Shown here: positions 2,786-37,332 of the stretch, one piece after another
Layout: each line of letters begins with the position of its first letter
Numbering within the stretch: the first letter of the stretch is position 1
From: Cyanobium sp. PLM2.Bin73
Lineage (GTDB): Bacteria > Cyanobacteriota > Cyanobacteriia > PCC-6307 > Cyanobiaceae
Length of the DNA stretch: 38,431 nucleotides
Assembly (NCBI GenBank): GCA_007694915.1
Contig: REEV01000112.1
Coordinates: 1-38,431 of the forward strand
Direction of reading: 5' to 3'
Program-made: the position numbers and the translations under genes
Notes under the pieces: model-generated
Told to the model about the DNA's origin: nothing
What the model saw: the letters and a program-made list of their open reading frames with translations, nothing else
Databases searched by the model: none

Positions 2786-3352
2786 ATGGCCGACGAGTCC
2801 TCCACGCCAGCGCCCCAGGGTGGGCGCAATGCCGGCAACCGCGACGGCGGCGGGTTTCGCATCCGCCTGAGCGACAACGAGATGCGCTCGGCCCGCAGCA
2901 TCCAGGAAGCCTTCCGGCTGCGCTCCACCGTGGCCGTGCTCGGCTTCTCGGTGCGCACCATCGCCCAGCTGCTGGAGGAGGGCAAGCTCGACGAGCTGGT
3001 GGCCCAGGCTCAGGCCCAGGCCGGCCCCCGCCGCGACGGTGGACGTGACGGTGCCCGCGATGGCGGGCGGCGCGAGGGTGGCCGCGGCGAAGGTCGTGAC
3101 GAAAGCCGTGGGGCTCGCCAGGACCGCCAGGCCCCCCGGGTCGATCCCTTTGCACGCCCCGCCCGCCCGGCGACGCCCGCGGCGGAGCCGGCAGCAGCAG
3201 CAGTGGCGGAACCCGAGCCCGCGGCGCAAGCTGAGCCCCAACAGGGGCCCCCAGCCGAGGACCAGGCGGGGACAGCGCCCGAGGCGCCGAACGCCACTGA
3301 AGCCACAGAGACTGAGGCCACGGAGACCGTCGAGACCACCGGCGAGCGCTGA
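2786..3352 (+). CDS. Unknown protein with RG-rich tract and acidic tail
   Basis: The protein has 188 residues from the ATG at 2786; the reading frame is open further upstream, but that overlaps the preceding gene. Residues about 20-75 are folded and well ordered: FRIRLSDNEMRSARSIQEAF, then a helix region containing VLGFSVRTIAQLLEEGKL. A strand followed by two helices would suit a ribbon-helix-helix-like fold, but that is a guess. About 80-120 form an arginine/glycine/aspartate-rich tract (RDGGRDGARDGGRREGGRGE). The rest is an alanine/proline/glutamate-rich acidic tail ending in TEATETVETTGER. RG-rich tracts often bind RNA. The stop lies 5 bp before trpS, so the two are surely co-transcribed. 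I do not recognise the family. Confidence 0.75.
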   Translation: MADESSTPAPQGGRNAGNRDGGGFRIRLSDNEMRSARSIQEAFRLRSTVAVLGFSVRTIAQLLEEGKLDELVAQAQAQAGPRRDGGRDGARDGGRREGGRGEGRDESRGARQDRQAPRVDPFARPARPATPAAEPAAAAVAEPEPAAQAEPQQGPPAEDQAGTAPEAPNATEATETEATETVETTGER

Positions 3353-3357
3353 TCGCC

Positions 3358-4407
3358 ATGACCAGGCCCCGGGTTCTCTCCGGCGTTCAGCCCACCGGCG
3401 CCCTGCATCTGGGCAACTGGCTAGGGGCCATCCGCAACTGGGTGGACCTGCAGCAGGACCACGACACCTTCTTCTGTGTTGTGGATCTGCACGCCATCAC
3501 GGTGCCCCACGATCCGGCGCGGCTGGCGGAGGACACGCTCACCACCGCGGCCCTCTACCTGGCCTGCGGCATCGATCCGGCGCGCTCCACGGTGTTCGTG
3601 CAGAGCCAGGTGCCGGCCCACAGCGAACTGTGCTGGCTGCTGAACTGCGTCACACCGCTCAACTGGCTGGAGCGCATGATCCAGTTCAAGGAGAAGGCCG
3701 TCAAACAGGGCGACCAGGTGTCGGCCGGGCTGCTCGATTACCCGGTGATGATGGCGGCGGACATCCTTCTCTATGACGCCGACCGCGTGCCGGTGGGCGA
3801 AGACCAGAAACAGCACCTGGAACTGGCCCGTGACATCGCCCAGCAGCGCGTCAACGCCCGCTTCGCCCCCAGGGGTGCCGATGGTGAGCCGATACCGGTG
3901 CTGAAGGTGCCCGAACCCATGATCCTGCCGGAAGGCGCCCGGGTGATGAGCCTCAGCGACGGCACCAGCAAGATGAGCAAGAGCGATCCCAACGAGGGCT
4001 CGCGCATCGCCCTGCTCGACCCACCCGAGCTGATCAGCCGCAAGATCAAGCGCGCCCGCACCGATCCCACCATGGGGCTGGAGTTCGGCAACCCGGAGCG
4101 CCCCGAGGCCGACAACCTGCTCGGGCTTTACGCGGTGCTCTCCGGTCGCGGCCGCGCCGCTGTGGCCAGCGAATGCGCGGAGATGGGCTGGGGGCGGTTC
4201 AAGCCGCTGCTGGCCGAGGCCGCCGTGGAGGCCCTGCGCCCGATCCAGCAGCGCTACCACGACCTGCGGGCCGATCCCAACGGCCTGGAGGCGGTGCTGG
4301 CGGAGGGCCGGGAGCGGGCGGCGGCGGTGGCGGACGCCACCCTGCAGCGGGTGCGCGATGCCCTCGGTTTCCTTCCCGTCAAGCCCGTGTCAGCAAAAAC
4401 GCGCTGA
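3358..4407 (+). CDS. trpS: Tryptophanyl-tRNA synthetase
   Basis: This class I aminoacyl-tRNA synthetase charges tRNA-Trp with tryptophan in the cytoplasm. The 349 residues match the usual bacterial length. The N-terminus has the HIGH-like signature LHLGN (16-20) after SGVQPTG, and the second ATP-binding loop is KMSKS (205-209). DADRVPVGEDQKQHLEL, typical of bacterial TrpRS, lies between them. The ATG at 3358 sits 5 bp after the preceding stop. A short stem (ggcga at 3341-3345 with tcgcc at 3353-3357) abuts the start codon. No T-rich terminator follows. Confidence 0.97.
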   Translation: MTRPRVLSGVQPTGALHLGNWLGAIRNWVDLQQDHDTFFCVVDLHAITVPHDPARLAEDTLTTAALYLACGIDPARSTVFVQSQVPAHSELCWLLNCVTPLNWLERMIQFKEKAVKQGDQVSAGLLDYPVMMAADILLYDADRVPVGEDQKQHLELARDIAQQRVNARFAPRGADGEPIPVLKVPEPMILPEGARVMSLSDGTSKMSKSDPNEGSRIALLDPPELISRKIKRARTDPTMGLEFGNPERPEADNLLGLYAVLSGRGRAAVASECAEMGWGRFKPLLAEAAVEALRPIQQRYHDLRADPNGLEAVLAEGRERAAAVADATLQRVRDALGFLPVKPVSAKTR

Positions 4408-32222: not shown

Positions 32223-32432
32223 GGGGTGCACGCTCCAGGCGCAGGGGGTGGGGGCGCCATCATGGCCAGCCAGGGAGATCGCTGGGCCGGTTCTCACCCC
32301 CAGCCTGGGCGGTGCTCCCGCCAGCGGGGTGGAGCGCCGTACACAACGGTTCGGCCTGCCGGGGTGTCAGGACCGGGGGAGATCCATAGGTTGAGATCAC
32401 CCATGCAGCCCGTGCCCGCCGGAGGTTTTCCC
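32223..32432 (+). promoter_or_regulatory. clpB upstream region with strong ribosome-binding site
   Basis: TAGGTT at 32387-32392 is a possible -10, giving a leader of about 34 nt. GGAGG at 32421-32425 is the strongest Shine-Dalgarno in the window, 7 nt before the ATG at 32433, and it argues against the alternative ATG at 32403. There is no CIRCE element (the heat-shock operator with paired TTAGCACTC/GAGTGCTAA), so HrcA control is not supported. Confidence 0.5.
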
Positions 32433-35081
<2,649 letters not shown>

Positions 35082-35441
35082 CTGGAAGCTGATCGGAGCA
35101 ACAAGTCATCCCCTTGCGGTAGGGGACACCTCAGTGGTCGATTTTTTCGCTACCCTCCAACTCAAAGTCGCCCGCGAAGTAATCCTAGATGTCGATCTGG
35201 ATGACAAAGGCAAGGAGCTGATCAGCCCACAACAGCCACAGAGGAGTCTGGCCTTCTGGATAGATGATCTTAACACGCAGAAGCAGTATCATTGCACGGC
35301 AAGGGATTACCGGACATGGTCGACAAGGAATAGCGCATCCTCGCTGCTCGCACACTCGGCTCTGTTCGCCTCTCTGATTGGCTTCTAGGTAATTGGGAAA
35401 AACCAAGAACCGCTCCACCCTTGTTCGTTTCAGTATTCAGT
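35082..35441 (+). other. AT-richer segment between clpB and SGNH gene
   Basis: This 360-bp stretch is about 50% GC by eye, against 70-75% nearby. It has unusual codons such as ATA, CTA and AGG in any reading frame. One open frame, GTG 35134 to 35388, is listed separately. A weak stem (cccct 35110-35114 with agggg 35121-35125) is followed by a T-run at 35142-35147, too far away for a good terminator. A 7-bp direct repeat, tcagtat, at 35430-35443 straddles the next gene's start codon. I see no transposase, attachment site or tRNA. Confidence 0.5.
35134..35388 (+). CDS. Doubtful 84-residue frame in the AT-richer segment
   Basis: A GTG start gives MVDFFATLQLKVAREVILDV, then WIDDLNTQKQYHCTARDYRTW, then a leucine/serine-rich end. 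The middle looks protein-like rather than random. The frame is open back into clpB, there is no ribosome-binding site and no family is recognised. It may be a remnant of an acquired gene, a small real gene, or chance. Confidence 0.25.
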   Translation: MVDFFATLQLKVAREVILDVDLDDKGKELISPQQPQRSLAFWIDDLNTQKQYHCTARDYRTWSTRNSASSLLAHSALFASLIGF

Positions 35442-36194
35442 ATGAAGGCATTATCGTCACTTCAAGTCCTGCTGGGATTGGCGGTTCTAGGGGGATCAGT
35501 CGCGCTCAATGTGGTGCTGGCCCGGGCAGCATTCCGCTACTACGGGCTTCTCAACGACACACGGCTCGATCCCTTTGGTCTGCAGAAGGGGTCCGCGCCA
35601 CCCAGCGATCGAGACACAAGGCCACGCGTGGTGGTGATCGGCGATTCCAGAGCAGGGGCATGGAAGCCGCCATTGAGCCGTGAATCCACCCAGTTCATCA
35701 ACCGCGGCATGAGCGGTCACACCACCGCTCAGGCCCTTGGCCGGTTCCAGCAGCACGTGGCAGATCTGGAGCCCGATCTGGTGTTGATCCAGGCAGGAAT
35801 CAATGATCTCAAAGCCATTCCCCTGTTTCCAGACAGGAAAACTGAGATCATCGAGCAGTGCAAGGCCAACATCCAGGAGCTCGTCTCCCGTTCAGAAAAA
35901 ACCGGTGCCAAGATAGTGGTGACCACCATCATTCCAGCGGGCAGCAGAATACCGCTGGCCAGGATTCCCTTCTGGCCCCGGGAGGTGGACGAAGCGGTGG
36001 AGGCCTGCAGCACAGGAATCCGTACGTTGGCTTCTGATCGCGTGGTGGTGTTTGACACAGCCCCCATCATCGTGAGTGAACCCAACGGGCGGGTGAAGCC
36101 CCAGTACCAGCGCGACTTCCTGCATCTGAACGCCGAGGGCTATGCGGTGCTGAACCGACAACTCACGCCTGTGTTAACCACCTTGCTCCAGTAG
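35442..36194 (+). CDS. Membrane-anchored or secreted SGNH (GDSL) hydrolase
   Basis: The protein has 250 residues from the ATG at 35442. A hydrophobic N-terminus, LQVLLGLAVLGGSVALNVVL (7-26), is an anchor or signal. All SGNH blocks are present: S69 in VVIGDSRAG, glycine in RGMSGHTT (88-95), N121 in QAGINDL, and D225 and H228 in DFLHLNAEGY. Such enzymes remove ester or acetyl groups from lipids, sugars or peptidoglycan; the substrate is unknown. GC is about 58% by eye, clearly below the neighbours. The DUF1800 reading frame starts 1 nt after its stop. Confidence 0.85.
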   Translation: MKALSSLQVLLGLAVLGGSVALNVVLARAAFRYYGLLNDTRLDPFGLQKGSAPPSDRDTRPRVVVIGDSRAGAWKPPLSRESTQFINRGMSGHTTAQALGRFQQHVADLEPDLVLIQAGINDLKAIPLFPDRKTEIIEQCKANIQELVSRSEKTGAKIVVTTIIPAGSRIPLARIPFWPREVDEAVEACSTGIRTLASDRVVVFDTAPIIVSEPNGRVKPQYQRDFLHLNAEGYAVLNRQLTPVLTTLLQ

Positions 36195-36195
36195 G

Positions 36196-37332
36196 TTGAA
36201 CCCGGCCATCCGATTCGCGGCCATGGGATCCACTGCCGCACCCTGCAGCACCCTGCCGCGCGAGGAACGCGGGCCCTGTAAGCGCAACCAGGCAGACACC
36301 CTTCAGCGCGACTGGCTCAGCCAGCTGGCCTGGGGCGCGGATCAGCAGCGCATCTGGCAGGTGCAGCTGTGGCTGGGGGTGTTCCCTGTGAACTGGCGTC
36401 AGCTGGCCGATCCACTGCTGCTGGAGGGCCAGATCGCCGCCATCAGCCGCCACCTCAACGGCAGCTTCAGCGAGCTGCTGGGGGCCATGGTGCTGGATCC
36501 AGCCCTGCAAATTTCCCTCAACGGACCGGCTAACCACCGCCGCAACCCCAACGAGAACCTTGCCCGCGAGCTGCTCGAGCTCTTCTCCCTCGGTGAGGGC
36601 CACTTCAGCGAGGCCGATGTGCGCGAGGCGGCCCGCGCCCTCAGCGGCTACCGCCTCGAGCGCCCCCAGCCCGATGGCGCCCCCCAGCTGGTGCTCGATC
36701 CCCGTCGCCACGACTTCGGCCCCAAAACGATCCTGGGCCGCAGCCACACCTTCGACGCCGAGAGCCTGGCAGCCTGGCTGGCCGAACAACCGACCACCGC
36801 CCGCCACATCAGTGCCCGGATCTGGCGCCAGCAAGTGGGCACTGCGGCCTCTCCCCAGCGCCTCGAGGCCCTCGCCAACGGCTGGCGGCAGCGGCAGCTC
36901 TCGATCCCCTGGCTGATGGAGGCCATCGCGGCGGCCCCGGAGGCGATCGAGAGCCGCCAGCGAGGGCTGCGGCTGGCCGATCCCCTCGAGATGGTGGCCC
37001 GCAGCCTGCGCCTGCTCGGCAGCCGCCACGCCGATGTCCTGGCCATCAGCCTGCGCGGCCTGCGCGAGATGGGCCAATCGCCCTTCGAGCCGCCGTCGGT
37101 GAAGGGCTGGCCGGTGAATGAGCAGTGGCTCAACCTGCGCTGGCTCCAGGCCCGCCGCCGCACCCTGGCGGCCCTGCTGGCCGATGAGGAGGTGTGGGCA
37201 TCAAGGCTGCTGCCCCCCGAGCTGCCCGCCTGGCTCACGCCGATCGCGCCCCTCGGGCTGGAGCTGCCGGCCGAGCCCAGCCGCGAGGCCCTTGCCCTGC
37301 TGTTCGCCGATCCCGTGTGGCAACTGGCCTGA
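36196..37332 (+). CDS. DUF1800 protein, N-terminally short
   Basis: The frame gives 378 residues from a TTG at 36196 or 369 from the ATG at 36223. NPNENLARELLELFSLGEGHFSEADV is the DUF1800 signature, and the central and C-terminal parts are normal (REMGQSPFEPPSVKGWPVNEQWLN). Most family members have about 90 further residues at the start, with a motif near LLxRAxFG, and usually a signal peptide; neither is here. The missing part lies exactly where the AT-richer segment and SGNH gene sit. DUF1800 has no known function. It lies 16 bp upstream of the DUF1501 gene. Confidence 0.8.
   Translation: MNPAIRFAAMGSTAAPCSTLPREERGPCKRNQADTLQRDWLSQLAWGADQQRIWQVQLWLGVFPVNWRQLADPLLLEGQIAAISRHLNGSFSELLGAMVLDPALQISLNGPANHRRNPNENLARELLELFSLGEGHFSEADVREAARALSGYRLERPQPDGAPQLVLDPRRHDFGPKTILGRSHTFDAESLAAWLAEQPTTARHISARIWRQQVGTAASPQRLEALANGWRQRQLSIPWLMEAIAAAPEAIESRQRGLRLADPLEMVARSLRLLGSRHADVLAISLRGLREMGQSPFEPPSVKGWPVNEQWLNLRWLQARRRTLAALLADEEVWASRLLPPELPAWLTPIAPLGLELPAEPSREALALLFADPVWQLA

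Follow-up and report, generated by a model that had tools for sequence, protein, structure and literature searches.

A transposase relic and a probably foreign SGNH hydrolase gene in a proposed variable interval behind clpB of a Cyanobium genome

Results

Genes and features behind clpB

The window analysed here, 38,431 nucleotides long, is the entire contig C137 (REEV01000112.1) of Cyanobium sp. PLM2.Bin73, whose genome comprises 2.72 Mb in 137 contigs and is 99.99% complete and 0.79% contaminated. Its size, a GC near 70% and the genes present fit a Cyanobium-like picocyanobacterium. Between clpB and a DUF1800 gene lies a segment, positions 35082-36194, formed by a spacer and an intact gene for an SGNH/GDSL hydrolase (Table 1). 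The stop codon of the latter is followed after 28 bp by the DUF1800 gene and this, after 16 bp, by a DUF1501 gene; the contig ends 2.2 kb past the SGNH gene. The C-terminal part of clpB was matched in 72 of 72 genomes, and the gene is 97% identical to clpB of G012, the nearest genome by this measure. Within 35000-36300, no promoter-like site was found (0.3 expected), including upstream of the SGNH gene, and two terminator-like sites were detected, both on the minus strand (0.8 expected). A tRNA search of the window found none.

In composition the DUF1800 and DUF1501 genes resemble the host, and they share 80-84% identity with those of G046, similarity to which starts at 36231, within the DUF1800 gene. 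The pair is patchily distributed, a DUF1800 gene being present in four of 12 congeners, in differing neighbourhoods. In G046, a tandem of two nearly identical 305-aa genes on the minus strand directly precedes DUF1800 (L092, 3236-5224). The idea that an insertion had shortened the DUF1800 gene was rejected, the frame in the window having 384 codons as compared with 371-400 in seven other matching family members.

Table 1. Features at the clpB-DUF1800 segment, in window coordinates
Feature	Position	Strand	Basis or remark
clpB, left flank	32403..35081	+	Host-like, GC 0.676; start as picked by the gene caller
Decayed 3' end of putative IS3-type transposase gene (orfB)	35123..35357	+	Two aligned pieces, 35123-35266 and 35320-35357
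SGNH/GDSL hydrolase gene, 250 aa	35442..36194	+	Pfam, orthologues, predicted fold, composition
Predicted N-terminal hydrophobic helix, residues 2-40	35445..35561	+	Predicted model; top hydrophobic 19-residue stretch from residue 9
Block I Gly-Asp-Ser, catalytic Ser69	35640..35648	+	Invariant in 18/18 aligned rows
Block II Gly89, oxyanion hole	35706..35708	+	Invariant in 18/18 aligned rows
Block III Asn121, oxyanion hole	35802..35804	+	Invariant in 18/18 aligned rows
Block V Asp225-x-x-His228	36114..36125	+	His228 in 18/18 rows, Asp225 in at least 90%
DUF1800 gene, right flank	36223..37332	+	PF08811, E 2.5e-69 (longer start used); GC 0.714
DUF1501 gene, cut by contig end	37349..38431	+	PF07394, E 2.9e-21; GC 0.750

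The segment departs from the window in composition

GC drops at the clpB stop, to 0.519 over the spacer (35082-35441) and 0.592 in the SGNH gene, whose GC3 is 0.71. Against the 31 other called window genes that reach 100 codons (mean GC 0.718, GC3 0.901, codon fit 0.668), the SGNH gene has z scores of -4.7 for GC, -6.0 for GC3 and -5.0 for codon fit. When the contig was scanned in 360-base windows, 0.2% were as low in GC as the spacer, the five with the lowest values beginning at 35106-35141; 1.5% of the 753-base windows were as low as the SGNH gene, and every one of these starts within 34901-35441. The compositional change, in GC as well as in codon use, is genuine. As to the levels given in the original prediction, the drop at the clpB stop, the low SGNH gene and the high DUF1800 side were all recovered, but the clpB flank (0.676) is slightly lower than the 70-75% proposed.

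The spacer holds the remains of a transposase gene, probably of IS3 type

The spacer is collinear with the 3' end of an orfB from a congener (L100), the two aligned pieces being 70% and 79% identical, respectively. At E 0.01, spacer DNA matched 13 of 119 genomes, its own included. In seven of the 13 the matches are short, 19 to 35 bases, and may be due to chance; G001, G002, G006, G062 and G065 match at 68-76% identity along stretches of 71-149 bases, and three of these genomes have two or more such places. Alignments of the spacer to five orfB places scored 47-60, as compared with 26-33 for the highest of 200 shuffles in each case. At the matched places, the encoded product is the C-terminal end of an integrase-core transposase (Pfam rve_3 and rve_2 for L103 and L104), and a frame with HTH_Tnp_1 lies upstream in L100, an arrangement that we take to be that of an IS3-type element. 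In the reverse search, a piece of the G065 transposase found a single place in the genome under study, 35179-35298 (E 8.7e-7). The resemblance to the 3' part of orfB holds for both DNA and protein, and is that of a remnant, not of a complete member of the IS3 group. On this sequence evidence, the spacer is a decayed transposase relic, and the earlier statement that no recombinase was found is wrong. No Pfam family matched the reading of the relic itself, which may be why it was overlooked.

The relic and the G006 and G062 copies (L100, 1501-1647; L102, 258-402) share a stretch of about eight codons that is missing from the L103 and L104 transposases, and which in both the G006 and the G062 copy contains two in-frame stops. 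Possibly, the relic derives from the G006/G062 sub-lineage of the transposase.

Distribution and phylogeny of the SGNH gene

A search of 400 family genomes at E 1e-8 found the SGNH gene in its own genome only. At E 1e-5 it matched 30 of 119 genomes, its own included, but none of the 12 congeners, two of which (G003 and G008) are less than 80% complete; the only other family member at this threshold was G059, with a distant match of 28%. An alignment search at E 1e-25 found matches in 31 of the 388 genomes of the class, again counting its own. A scan of genome contigs with the single sequence returned no relatives, whereas the alignment-based scan did. Among 80 listed loci, the strong matches come from Trichocoleus, Chamaesiphon, Okeania, Pseudanabaena, Phormidium, Leptolyngbyaceae, Hyella, Xenococcaceae and one bin labelled Chloroflexales. 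Orthologues are 33-49% identical to the window protein, and no relative exceeds 49%. Distant SGNH matches were found in 12 plasmid and six phage records, none covering 80% of the query. Moreover, the same gene was looked for at the same place in close relatives and was not found there. The absence of the gene from the other 399 family genomes (E 1e-8) and from all 12 congeners (E 1e-5) supports the proposal that it is foreign to its family, and we infer that it was transferred, not repeatedly lost elsewhere.

In a tree of 44 rows, from which eight duplicates had been dropped, the orthologues group together, apart from four outgroup rows of our own choosing, with 100/100 support. The window row sits on a long branch (0.94) and is unplaced; its nearest row by path is the Chloroflexales-labelled bin (L148). 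In that bin, the orthologue of this otherwise cyanobacterial family (2944-3678) adjoins a gene that we read as GroEL-like; it could represent either a transfer between phyla or a misplaced contig.

Joint travel of the SGNH and DUF1800 genes was considered and rejected: DUF1800 and DUF1501 matches are absent from all 47 SGNH loci, as are SGNH matches from all 20 DUF1800 loci (16 places), the flanks being short in both sets.

The place after clpB in relatives

The clpB-DUF1800 junction was compared with 15 clpB stretches of relatives, covering from 1.5 to about 11 kb after clpB, and no SGNH, DUF1800 or DUF1501 match was found in any of them; the content of L085, L086, L087 and parts of L084 and L088 was assessed by similarity search alone, and L095, where the gene caller had labelled another gene clpB, was left out of the gene-order comparison. 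A CHAD gene follows clpB after 32, 62 and 65 bp in G004, G005 and G001, respectively, the CHAD profile having been checked in G004. In the genome under study, the CHAD-aldolase block, which in those three congeners comes right after clpB, is on another contig, C116. There (L112, 122-364), a DUF6165-like gene with one internal TAG is followed by decayed sequence and then by the CHAD-aldolase block; the reading at the start of the contig had no Pfam match. G012 carries, on one contig, a transposase piece (PF13808), DUF6165, two minus-strand genes, CHAD and aldolase, and other genes follow its clpB, among them one with a weak Glyco_transf_9 match under the cut-off. The order in G007 is DUF1800, DUF1501, a gene that we read as transporter-like, and DUF6165. 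In G011, DUF6165 lies upstream of DUF1800, which fits a simple picture less well.

These gene orders suggest that the clpB-CHAD interval is variable. C137 and C116 may represent its two edges in the genome under study. A plain inversion joining clpB to DUF1800 is possible but unneeded, because DUF6165 lies beside CHAD in G012 and DUF1800, DUF1501, a further gene and DUF6165 follow one another in G007; neither history is proven. In the open-licence literature, we found no paper joining clpB, Cyanobium and a genomic island.

The predicted SGNH protein

The SGNH frame is intact from the ATG at 35442, with no internal stop listed. Its product, searched from a longer TTG start at 35421, matched Pfam Lipase_GDSL_2 (PF13472) with E 2.3e-17 and 64.5 bits, against a cut-off of 32.9; the sole NCBIfam match was far below its cut-off (18.7 vs 270 bits). 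All of the catalytic blocks (Ser in I, Gly in II, Asn in III and AspxxHis in V, as defined in an excerpt of PMC9487903) are present. The predicted model (mean pLDDT 85.5, pTM 0.78, with low pLDDT at residues 38-46) has the alpha/beta SGNH fold, so that profile, blocks and modelled fold agree in placing the protein among the SGNH hydrolases. The nearest solved folds are designed scaffolds on a GDSL-like protein, Bacteroides acylhydrolases, sialate O-acetylesterases and PAF acetylhydrolases, and families absent from the lists of matches were not counted as excluded. The description of the hydrolase as intact and membrane-directed agrees with the open reading frame and with the N-terminal helix, as far as sequence and model go.

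Most of the orthologues examined have neighbours without a hint of an envelope function, such as a gene that we read as aminotransferase-like at the Pseudanabaena loci. The Hyella orthologue (L157), however, comes after an MBOAT gene and a DUF1574 gene and before an outer-membrane efflux gene; an efflux gene also lies at L159 and at L161, the latter having in addition two DUF1574 matches slightly under the cut-off. Modification of an envelope polymer, as originally suggested, is made plausible by the neighbours of O-acylation or export type next to the Hyella and two Xenococcaceae orthologues; the lack of an MBOAT match in the genome under study speaks against it. The MBOAT profile matched none of eight genomes (its own and seven relatives), as compared with three of 14 control genomes. 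The best reading of sequence and model is a membrane-anchored periplasmic ester hydrolase that would act on an acylated envelope glycan or lipid; the substrate is our guess. Among the titles listed from the open-licence literature, none was on this cyanobacterial SGNH family, no substrate was found for the family, and no paper linked SGNH hydrolases, cyanobacteria, acetyl and exopolysaccharide.

Discussion

With a probability of about 0.58, the locus is a variable interval behind clpB that holds an IS3 relic and an SGNH gene from outside the family, encoding a predicted periplasmic esterase. The segment would be the left part of this interval, with worn IS3-type remains followed by the intact gene. 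Composition, distribution, the remains of the insertion sequence, the differing neighbourhoods, the motif set and the predicted fold were computed directly; topology and ester cleavage are inferred, and the donor and date of transfer are guesses. The gene may have entered the lineage from outside the family; another cyanobacterium is the likeliest donor, and the event is probably not very recent. The N-terminal helix of its product would most likely anchor the protein in the inner membrane and leave the catalytic domain in the periplasm, where a catalytic set of Ser69, His228 and Asp225 could cleave an ester, Ser69, Gly89 and Asn121 forming the oxyanion hole. The acyl group released would be short, probably acetyl, and come from an envelope glycan or lipid. 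Several observations count against this explanation: the window row is unplaced in the tree, no MBOAT partner was found in the genome, most orthologues examined have neighbours without a hint of an envelope function, the right part of the interval lies on other contigs, and the SGNH gene has no promoter-like site upstream.

The original prediction had the acquisition as recent, which is unproven but not disproven. GC3 is 0.17-0.59 in cyanobacterial orthologues, 0.71 in the window gene and 0.90 in host genes, a gradient compatible with an older transfer followed by partial amelioration. However, since the nearest row in the tree is the Chloroflexales bin, with a GC3 of 0.74, a cyanobacterial donor and slow amelioration are unproven. 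Nor does the decay of the relic say anything firm on the date of the gene, because the insertion sequence may differ from it in age; together with the 49% ceiling on identity, it is insufficient alone to date the transfer. A recent transfer from a donor already at a GC of about 0.6, Chloroflexota-like for example, would make the composition the donor's own, with no amelioration. The orthologue in the bin (GC 0.614) has 47% identity to the window protein, no nearer than several cyanobacterial rows, which reach 49%; it is a single bin, bins may contain foreign contigs, and the remaining good-coverage members of the family are cyanobacterial. We consider such a recent transfer unlikely. Still less is to be said for an ancestral gene retained here and lost elsewhere, its odd composition reflecting weak selection on codon use. 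The patchy yet wide occurrence in the class and the lack of a clear partner for the window row are compatible with it, but 399 other family genomes without the gene would demand many losses and GC3 lies six standard deviations under host genes, so that we regard retention as very unlikely. It would be extraordinary if an assembly artefact or contamination had placed foreign sequence between clpB and DUF1800. The fragmented assembly and the nearby contig end leave room for this, but the type of insertion sequence adjoining clpB is also found in congeners, the downstream genes are host-like and close to those of G046, and contamination of the genome is low.

With regard to function, the protein could instead be an acyltransferase that loads an acyl group onto an envelope polymer, as SGNH proteins of MBOAT-SGNH pairs do according to the abstract of PMC12148441. 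The position of the Hyella orthologue behind MBOAT and DUF1574 genes agrees with this; however, the search that was positive in control genomes found no MBOAT in the genome under study or its seven relatives, and for this reason we prefer a stand-alone esterase to half of an acyltransferase pair, the transferase being decidedly unlikely. A bolder proposal, equally doubtful, is that these picocyanobacteria exchange genes at the clpB-CHAD interval, a site not described before, and that the acquired SGNH gene was wired into an SGNH-DUF1800-DUF1501 transcription unit whose exported products act on one envelope polymer.

The preferred reading, an interval with a relic and an esterase gene from outside the family, would mean that a high-GC picocyanobacterium gained one gene, for a probably surface-directed esterase, at a site where its relatives differ from one another. 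Contrary to the earlier view, the remains of a mobile element lie nearby, and the cyanobacterial SGNH family to which the gene belongs would be easy to assay; in other respects, this is routine genome flux. The acquisition is an ordinary event of a known kind, and one-strain gains are reported to be common in picocyanobacteria in the excerpted text of PMC7522525. Like the strain-specific gained genes in the genomic islands described in that excerpt, the SGNH gene is a one-genome gain in an interval varying among relatives; unlike them, it has an IS3-type relic at the left edge, and the interval is split between contigs.

The cyanobacterial SGNH proteins of Pseudanabaena, Trichocoleus, Okeania, Chamaesiphon and others are full-length orthologues that share the N-terminal helix and an LDPLGL-like linker, but differ in identity (33-49%), in neighbours and in host GC, mostly 0.33-0.54. 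The Bacteroides acylhydrolases 4ppy, 4iyj and 4hf7 and the sialate O-acetylesterases 6njc and 7pzg are alike in all catalytic blocks and in fold (Z 21.3-22.9 against the model, 190-197 residues aligned, rmsd 2.4-2.8). They are, however, only 18-26% identical to the window protein, which adds a hydrophobic helix ahead of the domain. With the MBOAT-SGNH O-acyltransferases (PatB, AlgJ/AlgX; PMC12148441 and PMC9487903), the protein shares SGNH-type catalytic residues and, at one orthologue locus, that of Hyella, an MBOAT neighbour; its own genome, in contrast, has no MBOAT match. Unlike AlgX and PatB1, as described in the excerpt of PMC9487903, it keeps the canonical Gly and Asn of the oxyanion hole.
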